NCBI GenBank assembly: GCA_947165595.1
Contig: CAMVAV010000010.1
Location: 1-49,218 of the forward strand
DNA from: an uncultured Clostridia bacterium
GTDB lineage: Bacteria; Bacillota; Clostridia; Oscillospirales; Oscillospiraceae
Reading direction: 5' to 3'
DNA length: 49,218 bases
Positions 7,010-48,766 of this stretch are shown piece by piece. The notes beneath the pieces were generated by a model. The model saw only the letters and a list, made by a program, of their open reading frames with translations. It had not been told where the DNA came from and did not search any database. Numbering within the stretch: the stretch's first letter is position 1; the number at the start of each line of letters is the position of its first letter. The translations under genes were made by a program, and so were the position numbers.

Positions 7010-8139
7010 TCTACCTCGACCACGCCGCCACGACGCCCGTGCCGCCCGAGGTCGCGGACGCCGTGCGCGAGGCGCTTGTCAACCAGTACGGCAATCCCAG
7101 CTCGCAGTATCCGCTCGGGCGGGAGGCGAGAGACCTTGTCGCCCGCTGCCGCGAGACGGTCGCGCGCGCGCTCGGCTGTGAGGCGGAGCGGCTTGTCTTC
7201 ACCTCCTGCGGCACGGAGAGCGACAACTGGGCGCTCCGCCTCGCCGTATGGCAGGGGCGGCACGCGGGGCGGCACATCGTCACCACCGCCGTCGAGCACA
7301 GCGCGGTGCTGGAGACCTGCCGCCAGCTCGAGCAGGAGGGCTGCGCCGTCACCTATCTCAAGCCCGGACGCGACGGGAGCGTCACCGTCGAACAGGTGGC
7401 GGACGCGCTGCGCGAGGACACGGTGCTGGTGTCCGTCATGCTGGTGAACAACGAAACGGGCTGCGTCTTTCCCGTGCGCGAGATCGCGGAGCTGCTGAAA
7501 GCGCGCGGCTCGAAGGCGCTTTTGCACACGGACGCCGTGCAGGGCTTTTTAAAGGTACCGTTTTGTACCGGTACATTGGGGGCCGACCTCATTTCGATCA
7601 GCGCGCACAAGCTCGGCGCGCCCAAGGGCGTCGGGGCGCTGTACCTCGGCGAGCGCGTCAAAAACCCGCGTCCCCTGCTCGCCGGAGGCGGTCAGGAGGG
7701 CGGCCTTCGCTCCGGCACGGAGGCGACCGCGCAGCTCGCCGGCTTCGCGAAGGCGGTGGAGCTGCGGCTCGCCGCGCTGGATGAAACGCTCGCCCACATG
7801 GCGTCGGTCAAGGCGTACGCGCTCGAAAGACTGCTCGCCATCGAGGGCGTGGAGCGCGTCGGAAACGGGGACGCGCCGCACATTCTCGCGATCTCGCTGG
7901 CGGGCTATCCCTCGGCGAACATCGTGGAGGAGCTCGCCGCGCGGGGCATCTGCGTCAGCGCGGGCAGCGCCTGCCACCGCGGGCGCGCCAGCCACGTCTA
8001 CGAGGCGATGGGGCTCCCCAAGCGCGTCAAGGCGGGCGTCGTGCGCGTCAGCTTCGGTCCCGAAACGCGGACGGACGACATCGACGCGCTCGCCGACGCG
8101 CTCCGCGCGCATCGGGACGCGCGCTTCCCCATGCTGTGA
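7006..8139 (+). CDS. Cysteine desulfurase (NifS/IscS-like, class V aminotransferase)
   Basis: A 377-residue PLP enzyme that moves sulfur from cysteine to its own active-site cysteine for Fe-S clusters or thionucleosides. It starts with the family signature MIYLDHAATTP. His98 lies in AVEHSAV, the PLP lysine is Lys202 in SISAHKLGAPKG, and the persulfide cysteine is Cys323 in SAGSACHRG. No scaffold (IscU) or tRNA sulfur carrier (MnmA) gene is adjacent, so the sulfur acceptor cannot be told. It follows the Sel1 gene with an ATGA overlap and ends before a hairpin terminator at 8174-8212. Confidence 0.93.
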   Translation: MIYLDHAATTPVPPEVADAVREALVNQYGNPSSQYPLGREARDLVARCRETVARALGCEAERLVFTSCGTESDNWALRLAVWQGRHAGRHIVTTAVEHSAVLETCRQLEQEGCAVTYLKPGRDGSVTVEQVADALREDTVLVSVMLVNNETGCVFPVREIAELLKARGSKALLHTDAVQGFLKVPFCTGTLGADLISISAHKLGAPKGVGALYLGERVKNPRPLLAGGGQEGGLRSGTEATAQLAGFAKAVELRLAALDETLAHMASVKAYALERLLAIEGVERVGNGDAPHILAISLAGYPSANIVEELAARGICVSAGSACHRGRASHVYEAMGLPKRVKAGVVRVSFGPETRTDDIDALADALRAHRDARFPML

Positions 8140-8173
8140 AAATTTACCCCCATTTCATTGTAAACCCCCTTTT

Positions 8174-8212
8174 CCGGGATGCGCCCGTTTGCGGCGCGTC
8201 CCGGCGTTTTTT
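8174..8212 (+). terminator. Rho-independent terminator of the cysteine desulfurase gene
   Basis: A 12-bp stem (8174-8185 with 8193-8204, one G-T pair), a 7-nt loop and a T6 tract at 8207-8212. Confidence 0.85.
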
Positions 8213-13521: not shown

Positions 13522-13660
13522 CTTTCAAATTAAAAGATTTAATTTGAAAGGCGCGTGCTGCGCACGCTGGTTTTGCGCCAAAGGCGCAAAACACGTCTCA
13601 TGCGAAATTTAACGCCGCTGCGCGGCTATAAAACGATTTTCAATCGTTTTAATAAATTTC
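13522..13660. repeat. Cluster of five short-loop hairpins nested in an intergenic region
   Basis: Between the convergent transporter and glycosyltransferase-like genes. Perfect inverted repeats, each with a 3-nt loop: 13522-13534/13538-13550 (13 bp), 13553-13558/13562-13567 (6 bp), 13571-13579/13583-13591 (9 bp), 13614-13618/13622-13626 (5 bp) and 13630-13638/13642-13650 (9 bp). The last two are enclosed by an outer 8-bp stem, 13604-13611 with 13653-13660, giving a cloverleaf-like fold. A terminator hairpin follows at once. Confidence 0.8.
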
Positions 13661-13665
13661 AGTAT

Positions 13666-13699
13666 AAAGCCCGCGGTTCGCGGAACCGCGGGCTTTTTT
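13666..13699. terminator. Bidirectional terminator between convergent genes
   Basis: A 14-bp perfect stem (13666-13679 with 13683-13696), a 3-nt loop and T6 on the plus strand (13694-13699); the mirrored A/T flank also serves the minus-strand gene ending at 13722. Confidence 0.85.
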
Positions 13700-37335: not shown

Positions 37336-39957
37336 ATGGAACTTAAGACCTATCAAAAGAACGTCATCGCCGATTTGTCCCGTTATCTTGCCCTGCTGAC
37401 GGAAACCGGCAGCGCGAGCAAGGCGTATAATGCCCTTTGGAATGAGAAAAGCGTCAACGTCGGAATCAACGGGCTGCCGAACTACCGCTACAACCTTTCG
37501 GGCCATGTGCCGGACGTCTGCCTGAAGATTCCAACAGGAGGCGGCAAGACTTTGGTCGCTGCAAGCTCCGTTAAACCGATTTATGATGCGATGCCGACGG
37601 TCACCGCCAAAGCGGTCGTGTGGCTTGTCCCGTCCGACGCCATTCTGACGCAGACTTACGCCGCGTTGAGCAATCCGGATCATCCCTATCGCCAGCGGCT
37701 CGACGTGGATTTTGGCGGACGTGTGGAGGTCTACTCCAAGGCGCAGTTGCTGAACGGGCAAAACTTCAATCCCACGGCGGTCGCGGAGCAGCTCTCCGTC
37801 TTTGTGCTGAGCTACGATTCGTTCCGCGCCAGCAAGAAAGAAGGCCGCAAGGCGTTTCAGGAGAACGGCAACCTTGCGACATTCCCGAAGATGATGCAGG
37901 ACAAGTCCGTCCTCTTGCCAGAAACGGACGAGACAGCGCTGATTCAGGTTATCCGCTCTCTGAACCCTGTTGTGATCGTGGACGAGAGTCATCACGCGAC
38001 CTCCCCGCTCAGCGTGGAGATGCTGGAAAACTTCAATCCCTGCTTTGTGCTCGACCTGACGGCGACGCCGAAAAAGGACAGCAATGTCATTTCCTTTGTC
38101 GACGCGGCACAGCTCAAAAAGGCGAACATGGTCAAGCTGCCGGTCATCGTCTACAATCGCAAATCGCAGGATGATGTTTATGCCGACGCCATCAACATTC
38201 GCCGCAAGCTGGAAATGCAGGCGGAGAACGAGCGGCAGACGACGGGACGCTATATTCGCCCCATCGTGCTGTTCCAGGCGCAGCCGAAGAACAACGCGGA
38301 CAGCACGACATACGACAAAATCAAGGAAACGCTGATTGAGGCAGGCATTCCAAAGGAACAGATCGCCATCAAAACGGGCGATAAGGATGAACTGAAAAAT
38401 GTTAACTTGCTTTCGCCCGATTGCCCTATTCGGTACATTATCACGGTCAACGCTCTGAAGGAAGGCTGGGACTGTCCGTTTGCCTATGTGTTGGCGACGG
38501 TGGCAAACCGCACCTCTGCGGTGGACGTGGAGCAAATATTGGGGAGAGTTCTTCGCTTGCCGTATACACAGAAGAACGCAAGCAATGTGCTGAACATCTC
38601 CTATGTTATTACCTCTTCGGCGGATTTCGGAAAGACGCTGGACAAGGTTGTCAGCGGTTTGAACGACGCAGGATTCAGCAACAAGGATTACCGTGCGAAG
38701 GACGTTGAGTCGGAAACGGAGCCGCCGCATCAACCAGAACTTGAGCAGATGGGATTCGTTATCGAGGAGGAGCCGGATATTCCTGCCGTCGATACGGGCT
38801 CGCTACGCGAGCGGATCGAATCGTCCGTGCAGCCGCGGGCGACGGAAACGCAGGCTGCCATCGAATCGGACGAGCTGCTTGCAGAGGCCCTTGCGCAGAA
38901 CGACGAATACGAGGAACAGGCGAACAGCAACACGGGAACGGCAATCGACATGGCTCCGGCGGAGGTGCGCGAGAAGATGAATACATTCAAGATGCACGAC
39001 GCTTTTGCAGAGGAAGCGGCGGCACTGCGCTTCCCGCAGTTCATGCTGGAAGTAGGGCCGAGCTTCTTCTCGGAAAATGATCGCGTTCCGCTCGAACTGG
39101 AGCATCTCTCGGAGGGTTTTACTCTGCGGGATAAAGACGTGCAGATCGACTTCAGCACGATCGAGGCAGAGATGGCGCGTGTGGATACCGACGACGCAAC
39201 CGACGCCGCGCCGCGTGCGTGGCAGCTTCAAGGCACGGACAGCACCTATTATAAAGAATGGTTCAACGCACAGCCGTCCAATATCAGACTGGCGCACTGC
39301 AAGGGGCTTATCAAAGCGAAGATCGCAAAGCTGAACTGCATCAATGATAAGGAGCTACAGGAGTATATCGACCGCGTGGTCGATACGCTGACGGAGGATC
39401 AGCTCAGCGATATGGAGCAGTCCACCTATCCGTACATCGTCAAGGTCGAGCAAAAGGTCAAGGCGCTGCTGGCGACGCATCGAATGAATGTGTTCGACCT
39501 TTGGCTGGAACAGGGCAAGATCGTTTGCGAACCCAATTATGCACTCAAGCCGATCATTTCACCCACAAGCTTTACCTCGACCTATCCGAAATCGCTCTAT
39601 ACCAGCGAGGAGGAGATGAACGACTACGAGCGCAAAACTGTGTGGACGCTGTCGGCGATGGATAACATCAAGTGGTGGCATCGAAATATCTCCCGTCTCG
39701 GTTTCCAGATCAACGGTGCCATCCACGCCTACCCTGACATTATCGCCATGACTGCCACAGGCAAGGTGCTGATGATCGAAACGAAGGGCGACCATCTGGA
39801 TAATGACGAGTCCAAGGCAAAAGCCAAGATCGGACGCCAGTGGGACAATCTTGCAGGGCCGATGTATCGGTATTTCATGGTATTCCAAAGCAAATCGCCA
39901 GACTATCCCGGCGCGTATTCCTATGATCGGTTCATGGAGATTGTGAAGGGGCTGTAA
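37336..39957 (+). CDS. res: Type III restriction endonuclease helicase-nuclease subunit (Res)
   Basis: An 873-residue superfamily-2 helicase with nuclease. Walker A is PTGGGKT at 66-72 and Walker B is DESHH from 216. DLTATPKK follows as motif III, NALKEGWDCP and EQILGRVLRLP are the C-terminal helicase motifs. A PD-(D/E)xK nuclease is at the end: PDIIAM near 800, then IETKGD with Glu815 and Lys817. All catalytic elements are present. It needs Mod for recognition and cuts about 25 bp from the site in known systems. GAGGG precedes the ATG at 37336. Confidence 0.93.
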   Translation: MELKTYQKNVIADLSRYLALLTETGSASKAYNALWNEKSVNVGINGLPNYRYNLSGHVPDVCLKIPTGGGKTLVAASSVKPIYDAMPTVTAKAVVWLVPSDAILTQTYAALSNPDHPYRQRLDVDFGGRVEVYSKAQLLNGQNFNPTAVAEQLSVFVLSYDSFRASKKEGRKAFQENGNLATFPKMMQDKSVLLPETDETALIQVIRSLNPVVIVDESHHATSPLSVEMLENFNPCFVLDLTATPKKDSNVISFVDAAQLKKANMVKLPVIVYNRKSQDDVYADAINIRRKLEMQAENERQTTGRYIRPIVLFQAQPKNNADSTTYDKIKETLIEAGIPKEQIAIKTGDKDELKNVNLLSPDCPIRYIITVNALKEGWDCPFAYVLATVANRTSAVDVEQILGRVLRLPYTQKNASNVLNISYVITSSADFGKTLDKVVSGLNDAGFSNKDYRAKDVESETEPPHQPELEQMGFVIEEEPDIPAVDTGSLRERIESSVQPRATETQAAIESDELLAEALAQNDEYEEQANSNTGTAIDMAPAEVREKMNTFKMHDAFAEEAAALRFPQFMLEVGPSFFSENDRVPLELEHLSEGFTLRDKDVQIDFSTIEAEMARVDTDDATDAAPRAWQLQGTDSTYYKEWFNAQPSNIRLAHCKGLIKAKIAKLNCINDKELQEYIDRVVDTLTEDQLSDMEQSTYPYIVKVEQKVKALLATHRMNVFDLWLEQGKIVCEPNYALKPIISPTSFTSTYPKSLYTSEEEMNDYERKTVWTLSAMDNIKWWHRNISRLGFQINGAIHAYPDIIAMTATGKVLMIETKGDHLDNDESKAKAKIGRQWDNLAGPMYRYFMVFQSKSPDYPGAYSYDRFMEIVKGL

Positions 39958-40003
39958 CAATAATCAGTTTACACAAGAATGAACAAAAAGGTGGGACTAT
40001 TTG

Positions 40004-40102
40004 ATGTTTAAGTCTCTTAACTGGAATCAATTTCTTGATATCCTTGATAGTATTATCATCCCGCCACATACCGTTTCGCCTTGCCCCTGCCGATCACGGT
40101 GA
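40004..40102 (+). pseudogene. Truncated gene start behind res
   Basis: GGTGGG and an ATG at 40004 open a frame MFKSLNWNQFLDILDSIIIP that looks like a real amphipathic protein start, then runs into the antiparallel end of the Schlafen-like gene at about 40055 and stops at 40100. It is probably the first 18-20 codons of a fifth operon gene whose rest was replaced when the neighbouring DNA arrived. A chance frame is not excluded. Confidence 0.35.
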
Positions 40103-41369
40103 TCATGCCTTCGTCGCGCATTTGCTTGGCAAGCGTGAACGCGCGCGTCTTTTTCAGGCCGAGCAGGCTTTGTATCTCGGCATCGGTGATTTGCCCGTTT
40201 TTGCGGATAAACTCCATGACCTTGGCCTTTTGCGCTTCCGTGATCGGCAGCGTGCGCTCTGCGCTCGTTCCGGCGTCGCTTGTTCCGGCGGCATTTTGAT
40301 TCGGCAGCACTATTTTGAACGTGTTTGCCGTCACCTCGATGCGCGGTTTTTCGGGGCAGTTTTCATACAGATGGTATATCCTGCGGATACCCGTGCCGTA
40401 GGACTCGATCAGCCGCAGGCGATGAAAGACTTCTGCAAGAGCATGGTTTCGCGGTTGAGAGATGCCGCTTCTGATATCCTCGGGGGAAAGGCCCGGCAAA
40501 AGGCCGCCGATGGATACGAATTCCATTTCGCTTTCGTTCACGTTGATGATGATGCTGCCGCTGAAGCTGTAGTCCCGATGCACCAGCGCGTTCAGCAGAG
40601 CTTCGCGGACAGCCGCTTCCGGGTAATCGGGATGCTCGATCCGTTCCAGACCCTTGAACACGGCGGAGGTTTTATTGCAGAGGGAAAGATAGTCGAACGC
40701 ATCCTCCAACTGCTTGAAAACAGAGCCGCCGAACTCCTTGCTGTCCTTAAACTCGGTGTTGGCATCATCCCCGAACACGGCGATCTTCGTCGTGTGCCGG
40801 CATTGGTCTGAGAGGAGGAGCGCGAGATTCGTGAAGAGCGTACCGCCCGGCAGCACCATTCCGAGCGCAAGATACTTTTCCGCTCCGAAATCCGCGCCGT
40901 ATTTTTGAAACGCTGCCGCCGCGGCGTGAAAGGTCAGCTCCTGCTCCAGCGAGCGCATGGCTTCAAAGGTATCGCCGTCGCTGTCCTTGATCATCTGCCG
41001 TATCTGCTCCGGCGAGGCAGGCACGCTGGAGGCGCCCTGCCTGACGAATACGCCATTCGGCTTCAACCCTTTTACGCGCAGATAATACGGCTTGTTCGTT
41101 CCTTCGCTGACGGTGATGCGAACGACCTTGTTCTCCTGTATGCTGTAGCGCACAAACATCGTGACGTCCGGCTGGATGGCGTCCCGGATGCCGTTTGTTA
41201 TGCGGGTGTACTCCTGATCCACATTGTCCAGCCCCACGGCGTTGCCCTCGTTATCAATGCCGATGTAGAGGATACCGCCGTCCGTATTGGCGAACGCGAT
41301 CACTTCCTTGTAGATCTCCTCGGTAAACTGCGACTTGAATTCGATGCTTTCCGTTTCAAACGAAGCCAT
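40056..41369 (-). CDS. Schlafen-like AlbA_2/ATP-binding protein with winged-helix tail
   Basis: A 437-residue protein. The N-terminal AlbA_2 (Schlafen-like) domain shows ESIEFKSQF and EVIAFANTDGGILYIGIDNE. The centre holds a divergent GHKL-type ATPase part with EALLNALVHRDYSFSGSI and GTGIRRIYHLYENC. The C-terminal 65 residues form a winged helix (ITDAEIQSLLGLKKTRAFTL). These proteins occur in mobile elements and defence clusters as putative nucleic-acid-binding regulators or RNases. AAGGAGG precedes the ATG. It converges on res and has its own promoter with two palindromic boxes upstream. Confidence 0.85.
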   Translation of the reverse strand: MASFETESIEFKSQFTEEIYKEVIAFANTDGGILYIGIDNEGNAVGLDNVDQEYTRITNGIRDAIQPDVTMFVRYSIQENKVVRITVSEGTNKPYYLRVKGLKPNGVFVRQGASSVPASPEQIRQMIKDSDGDTFEAMRSLEQELTFHAAAAAFQKYGADFGAEKYLALGMVLPGGTLFTNLALLLSDQCRHTTKIAVFGDDANTEFKDSKEFGGSVFKQLEDAFDYLSLCNKTSAVFKGLERIEHPDYPEAAVREALLNALVHRDYSFSGSIIINVNESEMEFVSIGGLLPGLSPEDIRSGISQPRNHALAEVFHRLRLIESYGTGIRRIYHLYENCPEKPRIEVTANTFKIVLPNQNAAGTSDAGTSAERTLPITEAQKAKVMEFIRKNGQITDAEIQSLLGLKKTRAFTLAKQMRDEGMITVIGRGKAKRYVAG

Positions 41370-41401
41370 AAGCGAACCTCCTTCGCTGTCTGTTCACCTC
41401 T

Positions 41402-41429
41402 ATTATATCCAATTCGTTCGCTCTGTCAA
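41402..41429 (-). promoter_or_regulatory. Promoter of the Schlafen-like gene
   Basis: On the minus strand, TTGACA (41424-41429), a 16-nt spacer, TATAAT (41402-41407), about 35 nt before the ATG. Confidence 0.8.
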
Positions 41430-41437
41430 CCGAAAAA

Positions 41438-41470
41438 ACGAATATTCGCTTTTTCGGGCGAATATTCGCT
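41438..41470. promoter_or_regulatory. Paired palindromic operator CGAATATTCG
   Basis: Two identical 10-bp palindromes, 41439-41448 and 41459-41468, both followed by CT on the plus strand. Their centres are 20 bp apart, two DNA turns, directly upstream of the -35 box. The winged helix of the downstream protein is a possible binder. Confidence 0.65.
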
Positions 41471-41476
41471 CCGTGC

Positions 41477-41740
41477 TTATCCGACGACCTCCATGATGAG
41501 GCGCGCGCCGAGGATGAAGCCCTCGCGGAAGCTGTCGTAGGCCATCGTGCCAACCAGCTCGTCGTGGATGTTGATGAGCTCCAGCAGGTGTTCCTTCGCC
41601 TTGCCGTCGAGCAGCTCCGCGAGCCACTTCTCATTCTGTCGGAACGATTCGAGCAGGATGCCCGTGTCGGAGCCGTCGGGATAGTCACGCTCGTTCGGGC
41701 GCAGCTCGCCGTGGTAGAGGTCGGAGAGAATGCTGTTCAT
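41477..41740 (-). CDS. Small DUF6809-like protein
   Basis: An 87-residue helical protein: MNSILSDLYHGELRPNERDY at the start, KWLAELLDGKAKEHLLELIN in the middle and GFILGARLIMEVVG at the end. The pattern matches the small DUF6809 proteins common in clostridial mobile elements; their function is unknown. GGGAGG lies 7 nt before the ATG, and the gene starts 14 nt after the stalk-protein stop, so the two are co-transcribed. Confidence 0.7.
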   Translation of the reverse strand: MNSILSDLYHGELRPNERDYPDGSDTGILLESFRQNEKWLAELLDGKAKEHLLELINIHDELVGTMAYDSFREGFILGARLIMEVVG

Positions 41741-41754
41741 ACGCTTGCCTCCCC

Positions 41755-42564
41755 TCAGCCGATGAAGACGTAGTACTGCGTCTGCAAAAAGGTGTGGTTG
41801 TGGTAAAAATCCCAAGCCTCGACACGGAAGTGGAAGCGTGGGAAGACCCTGATATGCTTGAGTAATTCTTCCTCCCGCCAGGGCCAGAAATATTTGGTGT
41901 ACGGTTCGTCCGCAGGGTCGATGGTGAGTGAGACCTTGGTGAGCGGCTTGCCGTCGCGCCACGCCTCCGGCTCGTTTCGGACCGCCTCGTAGATCGTATA
42001 CGCCATACGAAGCGTCTCGTGCAGATTGCGGACATACAGGTCATCGCCGTACTCGCTTTGGAAGCGCCGGCAATCAACTGGTGGAAGCTCCAAGGCAGGG
42101 AATACGCTCCAATCGTAGCTCGGCGTCGGCAGCTCCGGCAGCGGTCCGGGGGCGAAGCAGTTGTTCTCGAAGCGCAACGTATCCTTGACCTCATAGAACG
42201 TCCCGTCGCCGCAGGGGATCAGGTCGCCGACCTGTGGGATGTACTTGCTGCCGTCCGAGGGCAGCGTGACGACCCTGCCGCTTGTCGGTTCCTCCGCGTA
42301 TGGCTCGTCTGTGGCGATGCGGACGGTGTTCGTCTGCGGTTCGTAGGTCACGCCGAAATTTGCCGCCCTGCCGACGTCGCGCAGTCTGACGTAGTTGTTT
42401 CCGCCGATGCTGTACGCCTCGATCTGCACAGGCTTGCCGTCGACGACAAACCTCTGATCGGACAGCTGCGCGGTCAGCGCGGCGGTCGCCGCCGGAGCCG
42501 CGAGCGCCGCGCCGAGCAGAACGCCCGACGTGACCAGCGCGAGTTCTCTTTTCATGTCTTTCAT
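41755..42564 (-). CDS. Secreted stalk-domain (copper amine oxidase N-like) protein
   Basis: A 269-residue protein with an N-terminal signal peptide (LALVTSGVLLGAALAAPAAT) and one stalk domain: QRFVVDGKPVQIEAYSIGGN then NYVRLRDVGRAANFGVTYEP and NTVRIATD. The rest contains aromatic-rich sequence (RFHFRVEAWDFYHNHTFL) with no known motif. Such proteins are frequent passengers in Oscillospiraceae conjugative elements, probably on the cell surface. The ATG at 42562-42564 has AAGGAGG 8 nt upstream; a second ATG at 42555 is too far from it. Confidence 0.78.
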   Translation of the reverse strand: MKDMKRELALVTSGVLLGAALAAPAATAALTAQLSDQRFVVDGKPVQIEAYSIGGNNYVRLRDVGRAANFGVTYEPQTNTVRIATDEPYAEEPTSGRVVTLPSDGSKYIPQVGDLIPCGDGTFYEVKDTLRFENNCFAPGPLPELPTPSYDWSVFPALELPPVDCRRFQSEYGDDLYVRNLHETLRMAYTIYEAVRNEPEAWRDGKPLTKVSLTIDPADEPYTKYFWPWREEELLKHIRVFPRFHFRVEAWDFYHNHTFLQTQYYVFIG

Positions 42565-42664
42565 CGTGTGCGCCTCCTTTCGATTTGGTAAGCAAACCAT
42601 ATCGAAAGCACGGGCGAAAGTCTACTGAAATCGCTTCGACGAAACGGAGAAAAACACGGAGGTC

Positions 42665-43612
42665 TTACGCCGCCCGCGCACGGTATCCCGCGCCGCCCTC
42701 GTCGCGGGCGATCTTCGCCGCGTAGCAGCCCTCCATCGTCTCCGGCGCGCGATACAGCGCTGTGAGCAGGTAGCCGCGTATGTTGCGGATGCTGGGGCGG
42801 CTTTCCTCCAGACAGTCGAAAATGTACTCGATGTGGAAACGATCCAGCGCACGGAGGCGTTCCAGCACCTCTGCCCGCGGCACATCCTCCTTGCCGATGC
42901 GCAGACTCGGCGCGGTGGAACGCTCCGCCTCGGCGATCAGGCGCACCATGCAGTCGAGAGTGTCGGCGGGGCAGCGCTTGGCAAGAGTTTCGTATTCGAT
43001 CTGCTCTCTGATCTCATCCTCCATCATCGGCTCCGGGGAGGATCGATAGATTTTACTGAACTCAGTTTTATTCTTCTCAGTCTTATTCGGGTCGGATTTT
43101 CCGACCTCCGGCGGTCTGCTTTTCCGACCGCTCGGGGTTGGTTTTTCTGACTCTGGGGAGTTGCCGGTGGTTCGATTTTCCGACCGCTTACCATCGAAAG
43201 CGTCCTGCTTTTCTGACCGCTCTCCGGCACAAGTGTCCTGTTTCGCAGACCGCTCACAGCTTTTTTCCACAGTCTCGAAACGGCGCAGATAAATGCGGTC
43301 CGGTTTTCCGCGCCCCTGCGGACGGCGCTCGATCAGGCGGGCGTTCTCCAGCTCGCGCATCAGCTTGCAGGCTTTCTCCTTGCAGCAGTCCAGCGCCTCG
43401 CGCACCGCGGCGACGGAGTAGTAGAGATATGCGCTGCCCTGCTCGTCCTGCCAGCCGCTGTGCAGCGAGAGGCTCAGGCGATCCAGCAGCAGGGCGTAGA
43501 GCAGCTTCGCGTCGGTGGAAACGCCGCGGTACTGTGGATCGTCGATCAGCGCCTTGGGGGTGCGGTAAAAGGTGAATTCGCCCGTGTTCTGTTCTGAAAT
43601 ATACGGATTCAT
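42665..43612 (-). CDS. repA: Replication initiator protein A (RepA_N, DUF6017 C-terminus)
   Basis: A 315-residue initiator of the type found in clostridial integrative elements and plasmids. The N-terminal RepA_N winged helix includes FTFYRTPKALIDDPQYRGVS and SAYLYYSVAAVREALDCCKE. A charged repetitive linker with SE(K/N)-type repeats follows, and the C-terminal DUF6017 domain has VLERLRALDRFHIEYIFDCL and IRNIRGYLLTALYRAPE. It would let the excised circle replicate. An AGGAAG box precedes the ATG. The palindrome set at 43644-43866 lies directly upstream. Confidence 0.88.
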   Translation of the reverse strand: MNPYISEQNTGEFTFYRTPKALIDDPQYRGVSTDAKLLYALLLDRLSLSLHSGWQDEQGSAYLYYSVAAVREALDCCKEKACKLMRELENARLIERRPQGRGKPDRIYLRRFETVEKSCERSAKQDTCAGERSEKQDAFDGKRSENRTTGNSPESEKPTPSGRKSRPPEVGKSDPNKTEKNKTEFSKIYRSSPEPMMEDEIREQIEYETLAKRCPADTLDCMVRLIAEAERSTAPSLRIGKEDVPRAEVLERLRALDRFHIEYIFDCLEESRPSIRNIRGYLLTALYRAPETMEGCYAAKIARDEGGAGYRARAA

Positions 43613-43643
43613 GGTTCACTTCCTTTCTTTTCACCACTCATAT

Positions 43644-43866
43644 CGGTTTTGGCAATATTGCCAAAACCGGTTTGTCTTAATTCGGACAAAGCGCTTTCGG
43701 ATTCAAATGCACTGTCTGACGAGCGCTTTGGACAATATTGTCCAGACCGCTTTGGCGGATCGGGTTGTCTGATTTCCGACAACCCGCTTTAGGGTGAATC
43801 GGGTCTGGCAACATTGCCGAACCCGATACCGCCCCGCGAGCGGTTCTGACAACATTGTCAGAACCG
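43644..43866. repeat. Palindrome array between relaxase and repA
   Basis: At least six inverted repeats in 223 bp. 43644-43669 is a perfect 26-bp palindrome with core GGCAATATTGCC. 43671-43676 pairs with 43685-43690 (TTTGTC/GACAAA). 43730-43743 is GGACAATATTGTCC. 43761-43769 pairs with 43778-43786 (GTTGTC/GACAAC core). 43800-43825 is imperfect with core GGCAACATTGCC. 43841-43866 has 12-bp perfect arms with core GACAACATTGTC and overlaps the relaxase stop. The last four centres are 37-41 bp apart. No T tract follows any of them. Confidence 0.85.
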
Positions 43867-45264
43867 GCCCTGCTCCGCTTTCCGCTCGGTCCGCCTTGAC
43901 TTTTCGCCCTCGACGCACGCCAGCTCCCGCTCGATCCGCGGCGCTTCTCCCGTGATTTCCGCGCACAGTCTCAGCGTCTTCCGCTCCGCGCGGATGGCGC
44001 GGTTCACCTCGGCAAGCTCCTCGTAGAGCGCCGCCTTTTCCGCCGCCAGCCGCTCTCGGGGGATGCCGCAGGCTTCCAGCGTTTCCACCGCCTCCGTATA
44101 GCGGGCGTATTCGTCCTCCAACCCGGTCATGCCGCTCTCGCAGCACTCCCACGCGGGGGCGAGCGCCTCGGCGTCCGCCAGCGCCGTGTACAGCGCCTGT
44201 CGCTTCTTTTTCCGCACATTGAGGATCGCCCGCTGCTTCGTGAGCGCCGCGAGGCGCTCCTCGGTTCTCGCGGCGAAAGCGTCCAGCCCACCCTGCGTGG
44301 TGACGCCGTTTTCCCGCAGGAACGCGAACTGCTCGCGATACCGCTCAAAGCGCATGAGGCTCGAGCGGAGCCGCGGCGTCATGCGCGGCGGATACTCCCG
44401 TTTTTCGATCTTCCCCAGCACATAGAGGTAGTGGACGTACAGCGCCAGAAAACCGCTGTATTTACGGTTCTTGGGGTAGGGGCGGTAACGGGGCCGCTCT
44501 GCGAGGATCGGGCGCTGTCCTGCTTCTATCGCCGCGAGATTGCCGTTTATGGCGTCGTGGATGGCATCCTCGCTGAAAAGCGGGTCTTTGCGCTCCGGCA
44601 CGATGTACCACTCCTGTCCGCGCAGGCGGTAGGCGAGGCGCGCGCCGTGCTTGATCTCCCAGCCCCTGTGCTCCATCAGCAGGAAAAAATGCCCGAGGTC
44701 GTTGGCGTCCTCGATGGACTCCCGCAGGTCGGCTTCCAGCAGGGCGCGGAAGGTCGGCTGTCCCCTGGACCGCCGCAGCCATTCGGCGTAGCTCACGGCT
44801 TTGCCCCTGCCTGCCGGGAGGACGGACAGGCCATGCGCGCGGCACAATTCGTCCGAGAGCGCGCGCACCTGATAATAGCTCTTGGCATTGCTGTGGTATT
44901 TCGCGCCGGTCATCACGCTGACGGAGTTCCAGAGGATGTGCGAGTGGATGTGCCGCTTATCGACGTGGGTGCCGATGACCACCTCATAATCGGACAGATG
45001 CCGCCGCGCAAACTCCCGCGCGATTTCCAGCGCCAGCTCCGGCGTGACCTCGCCCGGCGCAAAGGACTGGATCATGTGGTAATACTGAACACCGTCTTCT
45101 TTTCCCAGCTCGCGCTTGGTTTCCATCATCTGCCGCGCCTCGCGTCCGGGGTCGCAGTTGATGGAATCGGTCAGGATACGGTCTTCCGTTTTATCGCCGT
45201 TGAGGACGTAGCTGACGCCCGCGTCCAGCCGTCCCTTTCGGGCGAGGATCTTCGTGACCGCCAT
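43858..45264 (-). CDS. MOBP-type relaxase/mobilisation nuclease
   Basis: A 468-residue relaxase. The N-terminal nicking domain contains GVSYVLNGDKT with candidate catalytic Tyr19 and the three-histidine motif HVDKRHIHSHILWNSV (His105, His107, His109) that binds the metal. LSDELCRAHGLSVLP is another family segment. The C-terminal 200 residues are coiled coil (EERLAALTKQRAI, ERKTLRLCAEI). It nicks oriT and leads the strand into the recipient. The ATG at 45264 overlaps the mobC stop (TGATG) and has GGAGG 7 nt upstream. Confidence 0.9.
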   Translation of the reverse strand: MAVTKILARKGRLDAGVSYVLNGDKTEDRILTDSINCDPGREARQMMETKRELGKEDGVQYYHMIQSFAPGEVTPELALEIAREFARRHLSDYEVVIGTHVDKRHIHSHILWNSVSVMTGAKYHSNAKSYYQVRALSDELCRAHGLSVLPAGRGKAVSYAEWLRRSRGQPTFRALLEADLRESIEDANDLGHFFLLMEHRGWEIKHGARLAYRLRGQEWYIVPERKDPLFSEDAIHDAINGNLAAIEAGQRPILAERPRYRPYPKNRKYSGFLALYVHYLYVLGKIEKREYPPRMTPRLRSSLMRFERYREQFAFLRENGVTTQGGLDAFAARTEERLAALTKQRAILNVRKKKRQALYTALADAEALAPAWECCESGMTGLEDEYARYTEAVETLEACGIPRERLAAEKAALYEELAEVNRAIRAERKTLRLCAEITGEAPRIERELACVEGEKSRRTERKAEQGRF

Positions 45265-45581
45265 CAGGCTGCCTCCGCGCCGCGCAGCAGCTCGTAGACC
45301 TTGTCCAGCAGGTACAGGGCGCGCTTCGCGTCCTCGGGGCGGGCGATCCCGGCGTTGACGCTGCGGGCGATCTGGTTGATATTCACGCCGATGTAGTGAA
45401 CTTCTAACCGCAGCTTTTGCAGCTCCTCCGAGGGACGGGCGCGGAGCTTCGCGCCCTCGATACAGCGGATGAGGAACGCCCGCTTGCTCAAGCCGCACAG
45501 CTTCGCTTTCTCACACAGCGCGCGGTACTGCTCCGGCGTCAGCTCGAAGTGCATATGGTGGGTATCGTGGTTTTTGCTCAA
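45264..45581 (-). CDS. mobC: MobC relaxosome accessory protein
   Basis: A 105-residue protein with an N-terminal ribbon-helix-helix-like part (FELTPEQYRALCEKAKLCGL, SKRAFLIRCIEG) and the family motif LHYIGVNINQIARSVNAG (here beginning VHYIGVN). It helps the relaxase melt and nick oriT. The start is a TTG at 45579-45581 with AAAGGAG 7 nt upstream; no ATG or GTG fits. Coupled to the relaxase gene by a one-base overlap. Confidence 0.88.
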   Translation of the reverse strand: MSKNHDTHHMHFELTPEQYRALCEKAKLCGLSKRAFLIRCIEGAKLRARPSEELQKLRLEVHYIGVNINQIARSVNAGIARPEDAKRALYLLDKVYELLRGAEAA

Positions 45582-45620
45582 GATGATCTCCTTTCCGCGG
45601 CGCGCGGCCGCTTGATCTTC

Positions 45621-45714
45621 CGCCCGCGGGCGGCATCGGGGTCAGGGGTATCCCCTGCAAGCGGCGGAAATGTACATTTCCGCTATGCTTGCGCAGACGC
45701 CGCCGAGGGCGGCG
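45621..45714. other. Candidate origin of transfer upstream of mobC
   Basis: Directly in front of mobC stand four compact inverted repeats: 45621-45632 (12-bp palindrome), 45643-45657 (CAGGGG-TAT-CCCCTG), 45664-45683 (perfect 20-bp palindrome with core TGTACA) and 45698-45714 (7-bp arms, 3-nt loop). Position beside mobC-relaxase and hairpins near a possible nick are usual for oriT; no nick consensus was identified. Confidence 0.4.
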
Positions 45715-45836
45715 GGAACGGTTCTGTTCGGTATCGTTGATCATGACACCTGCGGGGGCTGCTCTCAAAAGAAAACCAGCCGCGCGGTATCCGATCCAAT
45801 CGGATAAATCAGCGCTTCCCAAACAGCTTTTCCGGC

Positions 45837-46442
45837 GTAGTCGACTATATAGTCGACTACGGAATTCAAAACCAGCGCGGGCGGCACAGCGTAGTCGACT
45901 AATTAGTCGACTAGCGCGACAGTTCCCTAGCCGAACAAGGGTGTCACAGTTGACACCTTGTTTTGCGCTTTTGCCTGAATTTTCCGATACAAGGGTGTCC
46001 AATGTAACACCCTGCTTTCGCGCCGTACCCGTTGCCTGTGCGTCATAGGTGCTACATGCAGCACCTTCGGTTTCGCTGATTCCCGAAAATTGGGCGCCAC
46101 AGGTGCTACATTTAGCACCTATAGCCTCGCGGAGAATCCGGGTCGCGGCACAGGCGTCTATAGCAGCGCCTGTCATATCCCACTGAGCTGACCGTAGGCG
46201 CCTAATGCAGCGTCTATGCTGACCAGCTTCGCCGAAAAAACTTTGCCATAGGCGCCTTATGTAGCGCCTATACCGTTTTGCTTCACCGGGATTTCTCAAT
46301 CACAGGCGTCTAATGTAGCGCCTGTGCGCCGTTTCGCGTACCAACAACGTGATACGAACCTTCCGGCAATCTTGCCGAAAGGTCACGCCGGGCTTGCCGG
46401 CGTCAGACTGTTGTGGACCTTTGGCAATGTTGCCGAAGATCC
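45837..46442. repeat. Array of twelve palindromes at about 54-bp spacing
   Basis: Inverted repeats centred at 45848.5, 45902.5, 45948.5, 46002.5, 46056.5, 46110.5, 46161.5, 46205.5, 46259.5, 46313.5, 46370.5 and 46428.5; spacings are 54, 46, 54, 54, 54, 51, 44, 54, 54, 57 and 58. Neighbours fall into five arm families: TAGTCGACTA (2), GGGTGT/ACACC (2), AGGTGCT/AGCACCT (2), AGGCG/CGCCT (4) and GGCAA/TTGCC (2). Arms change together, keeping complementarity. The roughly 30-nt spacers share a loose TTCGC...GG.ATTC pattern. No frame stays open with plausible coding sequence across the array. Confidence 0.88.
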
Positions 46443-46459
46443 ACCTTCAATGTGCCGTT

Positions 46460-46540
46460 ACTTGCTTTTTCGTGCGGATTCGACGTTTCTAAACTTGCTT
46501 TTTCGTGACAAATCAGGCTAGCTGTACTTGCATTTTCGTG
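46460..46540 (+). repeat. Three direct repeats with 33-bp period upstream of the ATPase promoter
   Basis: ACTTGCTTTTTCGTG at 46460-46474 and 46493-46507, and ACTTGCATTTTCGTG at 46526-46540. Starts are exactly 33 bp apart, about three helical turns, and the last copy overlaps the -35 box of the downstream gene. Confidence 0.85.
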
Positions 46541-46556
46541 ATATTTGTTCTATAAT
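46528..46556 (+). promoter_or_regulatory. Promoter of the DUF4143 ATPase gene
   Basis: TTGCAT (46528-46533), a 17-nt spacer, TATAAT (46551-46556), 33 nt before the ATG. Confidence 0.85.
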
Positions 46557-46588
46557 ACGATTCAGATTTGGGAGTGGAGGCTTTTCCT

Positions 46589-47929
46589 ATGCTGAAACGG
46601 AAGATTTATGACGAGCTTCTTGCCTGGAAACAGAGAAGCAGCGGACAAACCGCGCTGCTGATCGACGGCGCACGCCGCGTGGGAAAGAGCTATATCGCCG
46701 AGCTGTTCGCAAGGCAGGAGTATAAAAGCCACATCATCATTGATTTCGGCAACGCGCCGAAGGATATTCTGGAGCTCATCGAAAACGAGAGCGCGGACCT
46801 CGACCTGTTCTTTGCGAAGCTTGGAGCCTTCTATTCCACGGCGCTGCACAAGCGCGAGTCGCTGATCGTGTTTGACGAGGTGCAGCAGTTCCCGCGGGCG
46901 CGCCAGCTCGTCAAGTATCTTGTTGCGGATGGGCGCTATGATTTTCTGGAAACAGGCTCTTTGATCCGGTTGAAAAAGAACACGGAAAACATCATCATCC
47001 CATCGGAAGAGGAACACATTGAAATGTTCCCGCTTGATTTTGAAGAATTTCTCTGGGCGATGGGCGACGAGGCGACTGCGCCGCTGATCCGGCAGTGCTT
47101 CGCGTCCAGAAAACCGCTGGGACAGGCGCTCCACAGGAAGGTTATGAACGATTTCCGGCAGTATGTGCTGGTCGGCGGGATGCCGCAGTCGGTGCTGGCA
47201 TATCTCGACGGGAAGAACTTTGAAGCGTCGGACGAGGCAAAGCGCCGCATTCTCCGGCTGTACCGGGACGACGTTTCCAAGTTCGCCGCGGGGTACGAGG
47301 AAAAAGTCTATGCCGTTTTCGACAATATACCGGGACAGCTTGCCAAGAAGGAAAAGAAGTACACGCTTGCCGCCATTGACAAGAATGCCCGTTTCCGCGC
47401 TTATGAGGACTCCTTCATCTGGCTGAACGAGGCGATGGTGGTCAACGCCTGCTTCAACGCGACCGATCCCGGCACCGCACTTGCCCTCAGCGCCGATCAC
47501 GCCACGCAGAAATGCTATATGGCCGATACGGGCCTGCTGGTCACGCAAGCCTTTATGGACAGGGCGTTTGCGGACAACGAGCTCTACAGGGCGGTCCTTT
47601 TCGACAAGCTCGATATCAATGAGGGGATGCTCATGGAAAATATCGTGGCGCAGATGCTGCGGCGCAACGGACACAAGCTGTACTTCTATTCGCGTTCGGA
47701 CGTGGAGCACCGTGAAAACCACATGGAGATCGACTTCCTGATCCCGGAGAAGAAAAAGCTCGCGCCGATCGAGGTGAAATCCGCCAATTATCGTTCTCAC
47801 TCCTCGCTGGACAAGTTCCGAAAAAAGTTCTCGCACACGATAGGAACGCCCTACATTCTTTATCCCAAGGACGTGATGGAGAAGGACGGCATCTGGCATC
47901 TGCCGCTGTATATGACAATGTGCCTGTAG
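46589..47929 (+). CDS. AAA+ ATPase with DUF4143 and nuclease-like C-terminus
   Basis: A 446-residue protein. Walker A is GARRVGKS (27-34), Walker B LIVFDEVQQF (92-101), and sensor-like ETGSLIRLKKN follows. The DUF4143 part has GGMPQSVLAYLDG and KCYMADTGLLVTQAF, and the end EIDFLIPEKKKLAPIEVKSA matches a PD-(D/E)xK-like core. The family is widespread, with unclear function. GGAGG 8 nt upstream sets the ATG at 46589. Promoter and triple direct repeats precede it; the small antitoxin-like gene follows after 22 nt. Confidence 0.88.
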   Translation: MLKRKIYDELLAWKQRSSGQTALLIDGARRVGKSYIAELFARQEYKSHIIIDFGNAPKDILELIENESADLDLFFAKLGAFYSTALHKRESLIVFDEVQQFPRARQLVKYLVADGRYDFLETGSLIRLKKNTENIIIPSEEEHIEMFPLDFEEFLWAMGDEATAPLIRQCFASRKPLGQALHRKVMNDFRQYVLVGGMPQSVLAYLDGKNFEASDEAKRRILRLYRDDVSKFAAGYEEKVYAVFDNIPGQLAKKEKKYTLAAIDKNARFRAYEDSFIWLNEAMVVNACFNATDPGTALALSADHATQKCYMADTGLLVTQAFMDRAFADNELYRAVLFDKLDINEGMLMENIVAQMLRRNGHKLYFYSRSDVEHRENHMEIDFLIPEKKKLAPIEVKSANYRSHSSLDKFRKKFSHTIGTPYILYPKDVMEKDGIWHLPLYMTMCL

Positions 47930-47951
47930 GCGGGCGATAGGAGGTTCATCC

Positions 47952-48116
47952 ATGATTGATCAGGAATATCATCCGTACCGACAGCTGACAGCCGAAACAA
48001 AACTTCTGGAAATGCTGAGCGAAGCGGAGAGCGATGCCCGTAATGGCCGCGTTGCCCCGATGCAAAGCACCTTTGACGCGCTCCGCGACGAACTGCAAAA
48101 GGGGAAGCGGCGATAA
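47952..48116 (+). CDS. Small antitoxin-like protein (Phd/YefM tail type)
   Basis: A 54-residue protein beginning MIDQEYHPYR and containing KLLEMLSEAESDARNGRVAP followed by a short helix FDALRDELQKGKRR. The LLE.L.EAE.D...GRV.P pattern is that of the C-terminal toxin-binding tail of Phd/YefM antitoxins, but the N-terminal DNA-binding part is missing. AGGAGG lies 7 nt before the ATG. No toxin gene follows. It may be a free-standing tail or a product of gene decay; co-transcribed with the ATPase gene. Confidence 0.55.
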   Translation: MIDQEYHPYRQLTAETKLLEMLSEAESDARNGRVAPMQSTFDALRDELQKGKRR

Positions 48117-48119
48117 TAT

Positions 48120-48680
48120 TCAGGATAATTGGACGGGCCGCTCTTTATTCGCTCCCTCCAGCAGCTCCCGATGCCGCGCGGAGAGGTACTGCGGCTCATG
48201 CTCGCTCATGATCGCCAGCCGCTCGATCAGCGAGAGCTTCGAGATCCGGTAGCGCGAGAAATACCACACCGCCGCGAGCTTTCCCGCCTTGATCCAGCGC
48301 CCGACGGTGCAGGGGCTGTAACCGGACAGCTCCGCCGTACGCTGAACGGTCAACGCGTCCGGCTCCTCGCGCCAGAGGGCGGTCAGGCGGGCGCGCGCCT
48401 CGTCCTCGGTGCAGAGTGGCAGACGGACACGCGGCTTGGGACAGGTGATGGAGCACTTCGGCGGCGCGGACGCCTTCTTTCCTTTTTTGAGATAGTCGAC
48501 GGCGTCCTCCAATCGGATGCGGTAGCGCCGTGTTTTCCCGCCCGTGTCCTCGCAGGGGATGACTCCGTTTTCCAGCAGCCATTTCGCCTTGCGCTTGCTG
48601 ATATGGCAGACGCGGCAGAGCTGGTCGCCGCTGATGATCGACGGGTAGGTTTCCAGAAGCAGATCGTAGTTCGATTCCAT
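48120..48680 (-). CDS. Protein with two excisionase/MerR-like HTH domains
   Basis: A 186-residue probable DNA-binding protein. The first domain is SIISGDQLCRVCHISKRKAK followed by WLLENGVIPCEDTGGKTRRY; the second is LTVQRTAELSGYSPCTVGRW and IKAGKLAAVWYFSRYRISKL. A basic linker (PPKCSITCPKPRVRL) joins them. Such twin-HTH proteins are common in Tn1549-like elements and may regulate transfer genes. AAAGGAGGG 7 nt upstream fixes the ATG at 48680; an earlier frame extension is not needed. It converges with the ATPase/antitoxin-like pair, only 3 nt apart. Confidence 0.75.
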   Translation of the reverse strand: MESNYDLLLETYPSIISGDQLCRVCHISKRKAKWLLENGVIPCEDTGGKTRRYRIRLEDAVDYLKKGKKASAPPKCSITCPKPRVRLPLCTEDEARARLTALWREEPDALTVQRTAELSGYSPCTVGRWIKAGKLAAVWYFSRYRISKLSLIERLAIMSEHEPQYLSARHRELLEGANKERPVQLS

Positions 48681-48766
48681 GGCAAAGCCCTCCTTTGACA
48701 GACCATTTTCCGAGATGGTTTTTGTCAATGGAGGGCGTGCGCGTTGAAAAAATGTTCTCCGAATTT

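Follow-up and report, generated by a model that had tools for sequence, protein, structure and literature searches.

Same-core palindrome pairs form a regular array beside an oriT-like region in an Oscillospiraceae mobile element

Introduction

Accessory-protein arrays at origins of transfer, such as the TraM and TraY sites of F and the TraK sites of RP4, are served by known proteins, with one motif each. The nearest published description that we found for the locus reported here is that of EGeRS1 in pLS20-family conjugative plasmids, where establishment operons are preceded by stretches of about 400–750 bp that contain multiple inverted repeats; their mechanism is given as unknown (PMC8708921). 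EGeRS1 is conserved in several copies upstream of operons, has a GC content of 51.4 vs 37.7% for its plasmid, and is considered by the authors unlikely to be a single-strand promoter (PMC8708921). The Frpo/ssi single-strand promoters of F-like plasmids contain -35/-10 promoter hexamers in a folded single strand (PMC11541004), and multiple terminators are known in conjugation operons (PMC8955417). The open-access literature, searched by title and abstract (most subscription journals lie outside its scope), yielded no description of palindrome pairs of the kind analyzed below.

We analyzed a window of 49,218 nucleotides (the whole stretch of DNA under study; contig CAMVAV010000010.1) from an uncultured Clostridia bacterium of the family Oscillospiraceae, in which twelve dyads, P1–P12, span 45836–46444 (609 bp) on a transfer element. 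The array resembles EGeRS1 in combining such a size with multiple inverted repeats, in belonging to a transfer element and in lying beside presumed early genes; unlike EGeRS1, it is GC-poorer than its window (54 vs 60%), regularly spaced and located at oriT, and the likeness is one of description. EGeRS1 stands just upstream of the ribosome binding site of establishment operons; the array ends 145 bp before the ATG of an AAA_14 gene, with three direct repeats in between. Frpo/ssi elements also have inverted repeats within or close to the leading region (a presumed position for the array) but carry -35/-10 hexamers, which a simple sigma-70 consensus scan did not find here, and form one structured promoter, not many short dyads. 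The stem and T-run of conjugation-operon terminators are seen in the corresponding hairpins of related elements; the array differs in lacking T-runs and in having regular spacing and several cores. The TraM/TraY and TraK arrays likewise place multiple sites beside nic, but the present array has five cores, and no binding protein was found for it.

Results and discussion

The palindromes, listed without strand, fall into five core families stacked as 2+2+2+4+2 sites. P1 (45836..45861), a perfect 26-bp palindrome (CGTAGTCGACTAT/ATAGTCGACTACG), shares the core TAGTCGACTA with P2 (45892..45913; TAGTCGACTAA/TTAGTCGACTA), 54 bp away. The core GGTGT(C) unites P3 (45935..45961; ACAAGGGTGTCA-cagt-TGACACCTTGT, with a one-base bulge and the core GGTGTC) and P4 (45991..46014; core GGTGT), about 54 bp further on. 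P5 (46047..46066; AGGTGCTACA/TGCAGCACCT) and P6 (46101..46120; AGGTGCTA-catt-TAGCACCT), also 54 bp apart, have AGGTGCTA in common. AGGCGYY is the core of P7 (46150..46173; ACAGGCG..CGCCTGT), P8 (46195..46216; TAGGCGC..GCGTCTA), P9 (46248..46271; ATAGGCGC..GCGCCTAT) and P10 (46301..46326; CACAGGCG..CGCCTGTG), and GGCAA-nn-TTGCC that of P11 (46358..46383; ACCTTCCGGCAA-tc-TTGCCGAAAGGT) and P12 (46413..46444; GTGGACCTTTGGCAA-tg-TTGCCGAAGATCCAC), 58 bp apart. Dyad quality is uneven, from the perfect 26-mer of P1 to the bulged P3 and the arms of just 7–8 bp in P7, P8 and P10. The initial annotation had described five unrelated arm sequences; three of the families (AGGGTGTC, AGGTGCTA and AGGCGYY) are separated by transitions alone and can be read as a single series, AGGYGYY, to which the TAGTCGACTA and GGCAA-nn-TTGCC families are unrelated. 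Its observation that the arms vary while symmetry is retained holds. The basic unit looks like a pair of palindromes with a common core.

Centre-to-centre intervals from P1 to P12 are 54, 46, 54, 54, 54, 51, 44, 54, 54, 57 and 58 bp, exactly 54 in six of eleven, which bears out the regular, mostly 54-bp arrangement of twelve inverted repeats seen at first. Centres came from a palindrome scan for P1–P6, P9, P11 and P12 and from hand-set arms for P7, P8 and P10, which are too imperfect for the scan; centring P3 on its bulged outer arms changes two intervals to 45.5 and 54.5. At threshold 7, the scan found 11 palindromes in 45780–46450 (the nine members above and hairpins at 45788–45806 and 46385–46403), a large excess over 200 dinucleotide shuffles (mean 0.51, maximum 2). 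The two adjoining 600-bp bins over the array contain 10 palindromes (oriT-type hairpins included), the maximum for the window, and 4; the highest count in any other bin is 5. Predicted folding is strong for RNA (z -8.7 and -8.3 on the two strands) and DNA (z -8.0), and some same-core palindromes join one another as long stems in the predicted folds; because palindromes force folding, these scores are not taken as evidence for RNA or single-stranded DNA.

The array lies between an oriT-like hairpin cluster (about 45620–45714), which adjoins mobC, and an AAA_14/DUF4143 ATPase gene on the plus strand (46589..47929; ATG at 46589, frame listed from TTG 46568). Its placement next to mobC and the relaxase gene stands. 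The cluster contains a hairpin at 45664..45683 (GCGGAAATGT/ACATTTCCGC), presumably part of the transfer origin, and, between it and mobC, an inverted repeat at 45643..45657 (CAGGGGTATCCCCTG) with longer versions in many relatives; neither is assigned a strand. Upstream of mobC in 29 relative loci, a hairpin with the same ATGTACAT centre occurs in 16 and one with a AGATATCT centre in 2. On the minus strand follow a MobC/NikA-like accessory mobilisation protein (45264..45581; PF21983, PF05713), a MobA/VirD2-like relaxase (43858..45498; PF03432), whose listed ORF start overlaps mobC and whose gene may start later, and a RepA_N replication initiator-like protein with DUF6017 (42665..43612; Pfam scan). 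On the other side, three direct repeats, TACTTGC(T/A)TTTTCGTG, lie 33 bp apart at 46459–46540, just before a TATAAT (46551–46556) upstream of the AAA_14 gene; they look like an operator set. Compared with Rfam at gathering scores, the window gave a single tRNA and no match in the array. Elsewhere in the window, at 13522–13696, four strong hairpins stand 45, 59 and 41 bp apart; their sequence is unlike the array and has no Rfam match at gathering score.

A second cluster of five palindromes, also without strand, occupies 43644..43866 between the relaxase stop and the repA start. Its core, GGCAATATTGCC / GACAAnnTTGTC, is of the GGCAA/GACAA type; the core of P11–P12 recurs there, and the outer arms vary yet stay self-complementary.

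Another species of the same genus (G003) carries the array region at 92% identity over query bases 1–941. Within the array, palindromes including loops (293 positions, 237 stem and 56 loop) show one substitution against G003, and spacers 22 in 316 positions (Fisher p 5e-6). The single palindrome substitution falls in P12 and the other imperfect positions are kept; loops alone show 0/56 (p 0.057). A spacer of G003 has one extra base after 46143. This comparison suggests that purifying selection acts on whole dyads. The initial annotation had proposed, as one option, selection for cruciform or hairpin structure, but the exact sequence is kept and loops are unchanged, which implies that more than base pairing is required. 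Hairpin-templated mutation could be an alternative source of concerted arm change. In the second cluster, G003 has an additional unit and seven palindromes vs five in the window, and a paired change, TGGCA..TGCC to TGACA..TGTC, separates the two.

MobC homologues were present in 17/400 family genomes (E up to 1e-15) and 10/394 order genomes (E up to 1e-12; overlapping the family set), the window's own genome included in both. A named genome collection gave at least 182 relatives, of which the best 80 were kept; a plasmid collection searched with MobC gave no match. The 29 loci scanned upstream comprise 25 of the 80 (the nearest ones that have sequence upstream) and four viral-contig loci; the scan reached at most 1300 bases, less in L060, L064, L071 and L074, and L068 and L072 were left out because they have almost no upstream sequence. 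The interpretation offered by the initial annotation is supported in part. In related elements palindromes do stand at the corresponding position, farther from mobC than the oriT hairpins, and they are fewer. Elements carry one (L005), two (L004/L048), four (L049) or, in the window, twelve copies; L005, which belongs to G004, is similar to the array flank and has neither oriT hairpins nor a MobC match. The initial annotation had taken homologues without palindromes as a case that would count against it. Homologues with few exist (one in L005, two in L004/L048), which shows that copy number is not essential, not that the sites are idle.

A same-core pair, defined as two palindromes with a common 7-base core stretch, was found in 12/29 near MobC loci, five of which (L054, L057, L065, L066, L128) carry one identical pair; the remaining loci have one such hairpin, or none was found. 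Of the 136 sources covered by the pair search, many of which overlap, 37 gave rows; some of these seem to have no relation to the array (for example L105, L106, L117, L118, L124, L130, the 26-bp rows of L026/L147 and window 8121–8189). Same-core pairs beside oriT come from about ten to twelve distinct relatives (L048, L049, L050/L052, L053, the L054 group, L070, L071, L146, L149/L036, G012, G303 and a second place in G365), with one core per element: TAGTCGAC in L048, AGGCGYY in L049, GGGTGTC in L050, L070 and L149, GGGGGTT in L053, GGGTGTT in the L054 group and L146, and GGCGTCC in L071. In G012, G303 and the second place in G365, pairs of the GGGTGT type are 34 bp apart. The pattern GGGTGTn7ACACCC occurred in 4/12 genomes, against a reversed control pattern found once each in 5/12; its places are beside mobC in G012 and G303, two sites in G365, one next to mobC and the other next to oriT-type hairpins (L145), and the L005 remnant of G004. 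Six stretches of viral contigs carry a GGGTGT-type hairpin (one on L136, the same contig as L129; the other five were palindrome-scanned only), and the TAGTCGACTA pair was not found in viral contigs. The stretch in L145 (9722–10475) is a remnant with oriT-type hairpins, the GGGTGT pair and several GGCAA-type palindromes, alongside a gene that is serine recombinase-like by eye; no MobC match was found in the stretch examined. Neither the same-core pairs, nor the 1, 2 or 4 sites of related elements, nor the frequent appearance of the relatives' long hairpin as an ordinary intrinsic terminator had been noticed at the outset.

Loops are inverted between close relatives at two sites: ACATTA in L022 vs TAATGT in L067 (95% identical over 1740 bases) and L060 (87%), and ATCAA in L026 and L129 vs TTGAT in L006 (95.7% over 231 bases to L026 and 88% over 335 bases to L129, around the site). 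Such inversion indicates that dyad orientation matters little.

Same-core pair centres in relatives are 33–35.5, 53–55.5 or 64 bp apart, and 44 bp separates both P7 from P8 and the two hairpins of L022, which differ in core. The TAGTCGACTA pairs of L048 and the window are both spaced by 54 bp, and the intervening sequences have no evident similarity. In simulations, seven distinct pair distances, chosen after inspection, showed a 10–11 bp period (p 0.003–0.004 vs a uniform null); adding the window's 46, 51, 57 and 58 gave p 0.07, and adding a further 32, 39, 46 and 51 from the distant loci L090, L105, L106 and L109 gave p 0.27. The window's eleven intervals alone gave p 0.046; one spacing test used 12 values that include L016, which has no same-core pair by the 7-mer criterion. 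Spacing near 34, 44, 54 or 64 bp suggests helical phasing, a signal that fades when all intervals are counted, and the 54-bp intervals may descend from one ancestral pair or from a duplicated 54-bp unit.

Several known classes do not fit the array, in agreement with the initial annotation on the first three. Its repeats are not near-identical, as those of a CRISPR array would be: there are several arm families, the dyads differ among themselves, and a Pfam scan found no cas genes among the 8 proteins of 37336–48728. An iteron array is rejected since same-core families have just 2–4 copies, with no single conserved direct repeat. A series of intrinsic terminators is rejected because no terminator-like site lies within the array (one match in the scanned stretch lies outside; shuffles mean 1.1) and, among the ten window hairpins listed (nine of them members of P1–P12, with P7, P8 and P10 unlisted), P3 alone, in plus-strand sense, is followed by a T-run (at least 5 T in 9 bases). 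Nor is it a REP/BIME or other genome-wide palindrome: the array query matched only itself in its own genome (78% complete), and searches for the cores TAGTCGACTA (at most 1 mismatch) and AGGYGCTAnnnnTAGCRCCT found each of them in 1/400 family genomes, the window's own; the sample did not include G003 and G014, both known to carry such sites. REP sequences and the palindromic elements of Rickettsia are alike in being short palindromes, some second-cluster-like ones lying in reading frames (L158, L161), but unlike in that the array is single in its genome and these two cores are absent from the 399 other family genomes. The second-cluster core is wider, a loose pattern (up to 1 mismatch) matching 10/119 relatives, in some cases within genes. 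Second-cluster-like palindromes lie in reading frames at L158 1497–1528 and L140 4008–4033 (both ParB-like by eye) and at L161 1500–1584 (replication-protein-like by eye).

We tentatively favour the reading that the same-core pairs are mainly double-stranded DNA binding sites for one or more dimeric proteins, forming a cis-acting control region beside oriT; it is the leading candidate, though less probable than not. Several dimers would be held at regular distance in a nucleoprotein block, possibly at a fixed helical phase, which would insulate oriT from transcription of neighbouring genes and/or regulate the mobC side and the far gene. The ancestral state may have been one terminator hairpin, or a terminator with a short same-core partner, beside oriT. 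From one or two hairpins of the kind that other elements carry at the same place, the array would have grown by duplication, the unit multiplying with its T-tails missing. Dyad conservation, same-core pairs, a wobble pattern without strand bias and the finding that the two cores searched are not general host repeats argue for protein sites, and loops in both orientations among close relatives suit symmetric sites. Against them stand the weak phase signal, the RNA-like signals of relatives and a copy number that is not conserved. No binding protein for the array sites was found; MobC is a poor candidate because its N-terminal HHxHxxLT is invariant in 16 aligned homologues while the cores vary. 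Should the pairs prove to be protein sites whose cores are specific to each element, they would offer a readable specificity code beside oriT in a group of Oscillospiraceae mobile elements, and the five-core stack would be one element answering to several proteins.

The relatives point partly to a role at the RNA level, in which terminators, insulators or RNA-stabilising hairpins between operons were inherited from the upstream-gene terminator of relatives and multiplied here. A hairpin followed by at least 5 T in 9 bases in the mobC sense occurs in 10/22 relative sources (L015, L016, L019, L022, L025, L034, L067, L070, L144, L147), about six distinct hairpins, as well as in two other L145 hairpins, and the long pair member in relatives often looks like an intrinsic terminator. 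The shorter partner stands just before the next gene's Shine-Dalgarno in L050, L053, L066, L070, L146 and L149. G·U wobbles in relatives other than L049 favour the mobC-sense strand in 8/8 cases (p 0.008), a split made after seeing the data and including some homologous cases. Wobbles and T-runs point to RNA for the relatives' copies, and the multiple terminators known in conjugation operons (PMC8955417) provide a parallel. The window's own array behaves differently: besides lacking terminator-like sites, it shows no strand preference in G·T mismatches (both clusters and L049 together, 6 vs 8, p 0.79; P3 left out owing to its bulge), and over all 45 palindromes the wobble-strand test is not significant (14 vs 8, p 0.29). 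It is hard to see what a regular spacing of 54 bp would mean for RNA, and no minus-strand gene like the relatives' upstream gene ends at the array. We regard an RNA role here as a possibility, though a doubtful one.

Mob genes usually enter last in transfer. If this rule applies, the array would be part of the leading region and would reach the recipient early as single-stranded DNA, where its hairpins could initiate synthesis of the complementary strand, promote early transcription or protect the incoming strand. Its position beside the oriT-like hairpins, away from mobC and the relaxase gene and before the plus-strand AAA_14 gene, accords with such a role, as do the strong predicted DNA folding and EGeRS1 upstream of pLS20 establishment operons (PMC8708921). 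However, any palindromes would fold in this way, so that the folding adds no independent support; no sigma-70-like promoter was found in the array by simple consensus scan (one weak match lies outside, at 45740–45768); and exact loop conservation would be unexpected. In L048 and L049, moreover, the neighbouring gene runs towards the array, placing it at the gene's 3' end, not upstream. We consider hairpins of the entering strand unlikely, although, were they confirmed, they would constitute a compact system for studying the establishment of gut-anaerobe elements.

Functionless, self-perfecting palindromes, with a hairpin duplicated by slippage and its symmetry kept by quasipalindrome mutation and gene conversion, would account for a copy number ranging from 1 to 12, and the loop inversions and the paired change in the second cluster are also expected from template switching. 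This neutral origin is improbable: spacers diverge and palindromes do not, and among the positions kept are imperfect ones that template switching would be likely to repair (for example in P5, P8 and P12). A more speculative proposal, to which we give slightly less credence than to neutrality, is that every same-core pair serves a different member of a family of regulators or relaxosome accessory proteins from other elements, so that the element could sense, borrow or titrate proteins of co-resident elements. Some stacked cores are indeed the sole core of a related element (TAGTCGACTA in L048, AGGCGYY in L049, GGGTGTC in several), and several oriT mimics are said to occur together on some plasmids, a parallel for such a stack. 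A decayed coding repeat, raised by the initial annotation as a refuting alternative, is very improbable: frames of 262 codons on the minus strand and 119 codons on the plus strand overlap parts of the array and 54 is a multiple of 3, but the intervals of 44 and 46 and the one-base G003 insertion break a repeat frame, and substitutions follow the palindrome limits.

Genes that end just before the palindromes in related elements (L048, L049, L016, L149, L070, L066, L050) encode proteins with a similar basic tail, often with KK or RK shortly before a final ER. Some of these proteins are apparently unrelated by eye, and the tail is possibly a shared C-terminal transfer or interaction signal.
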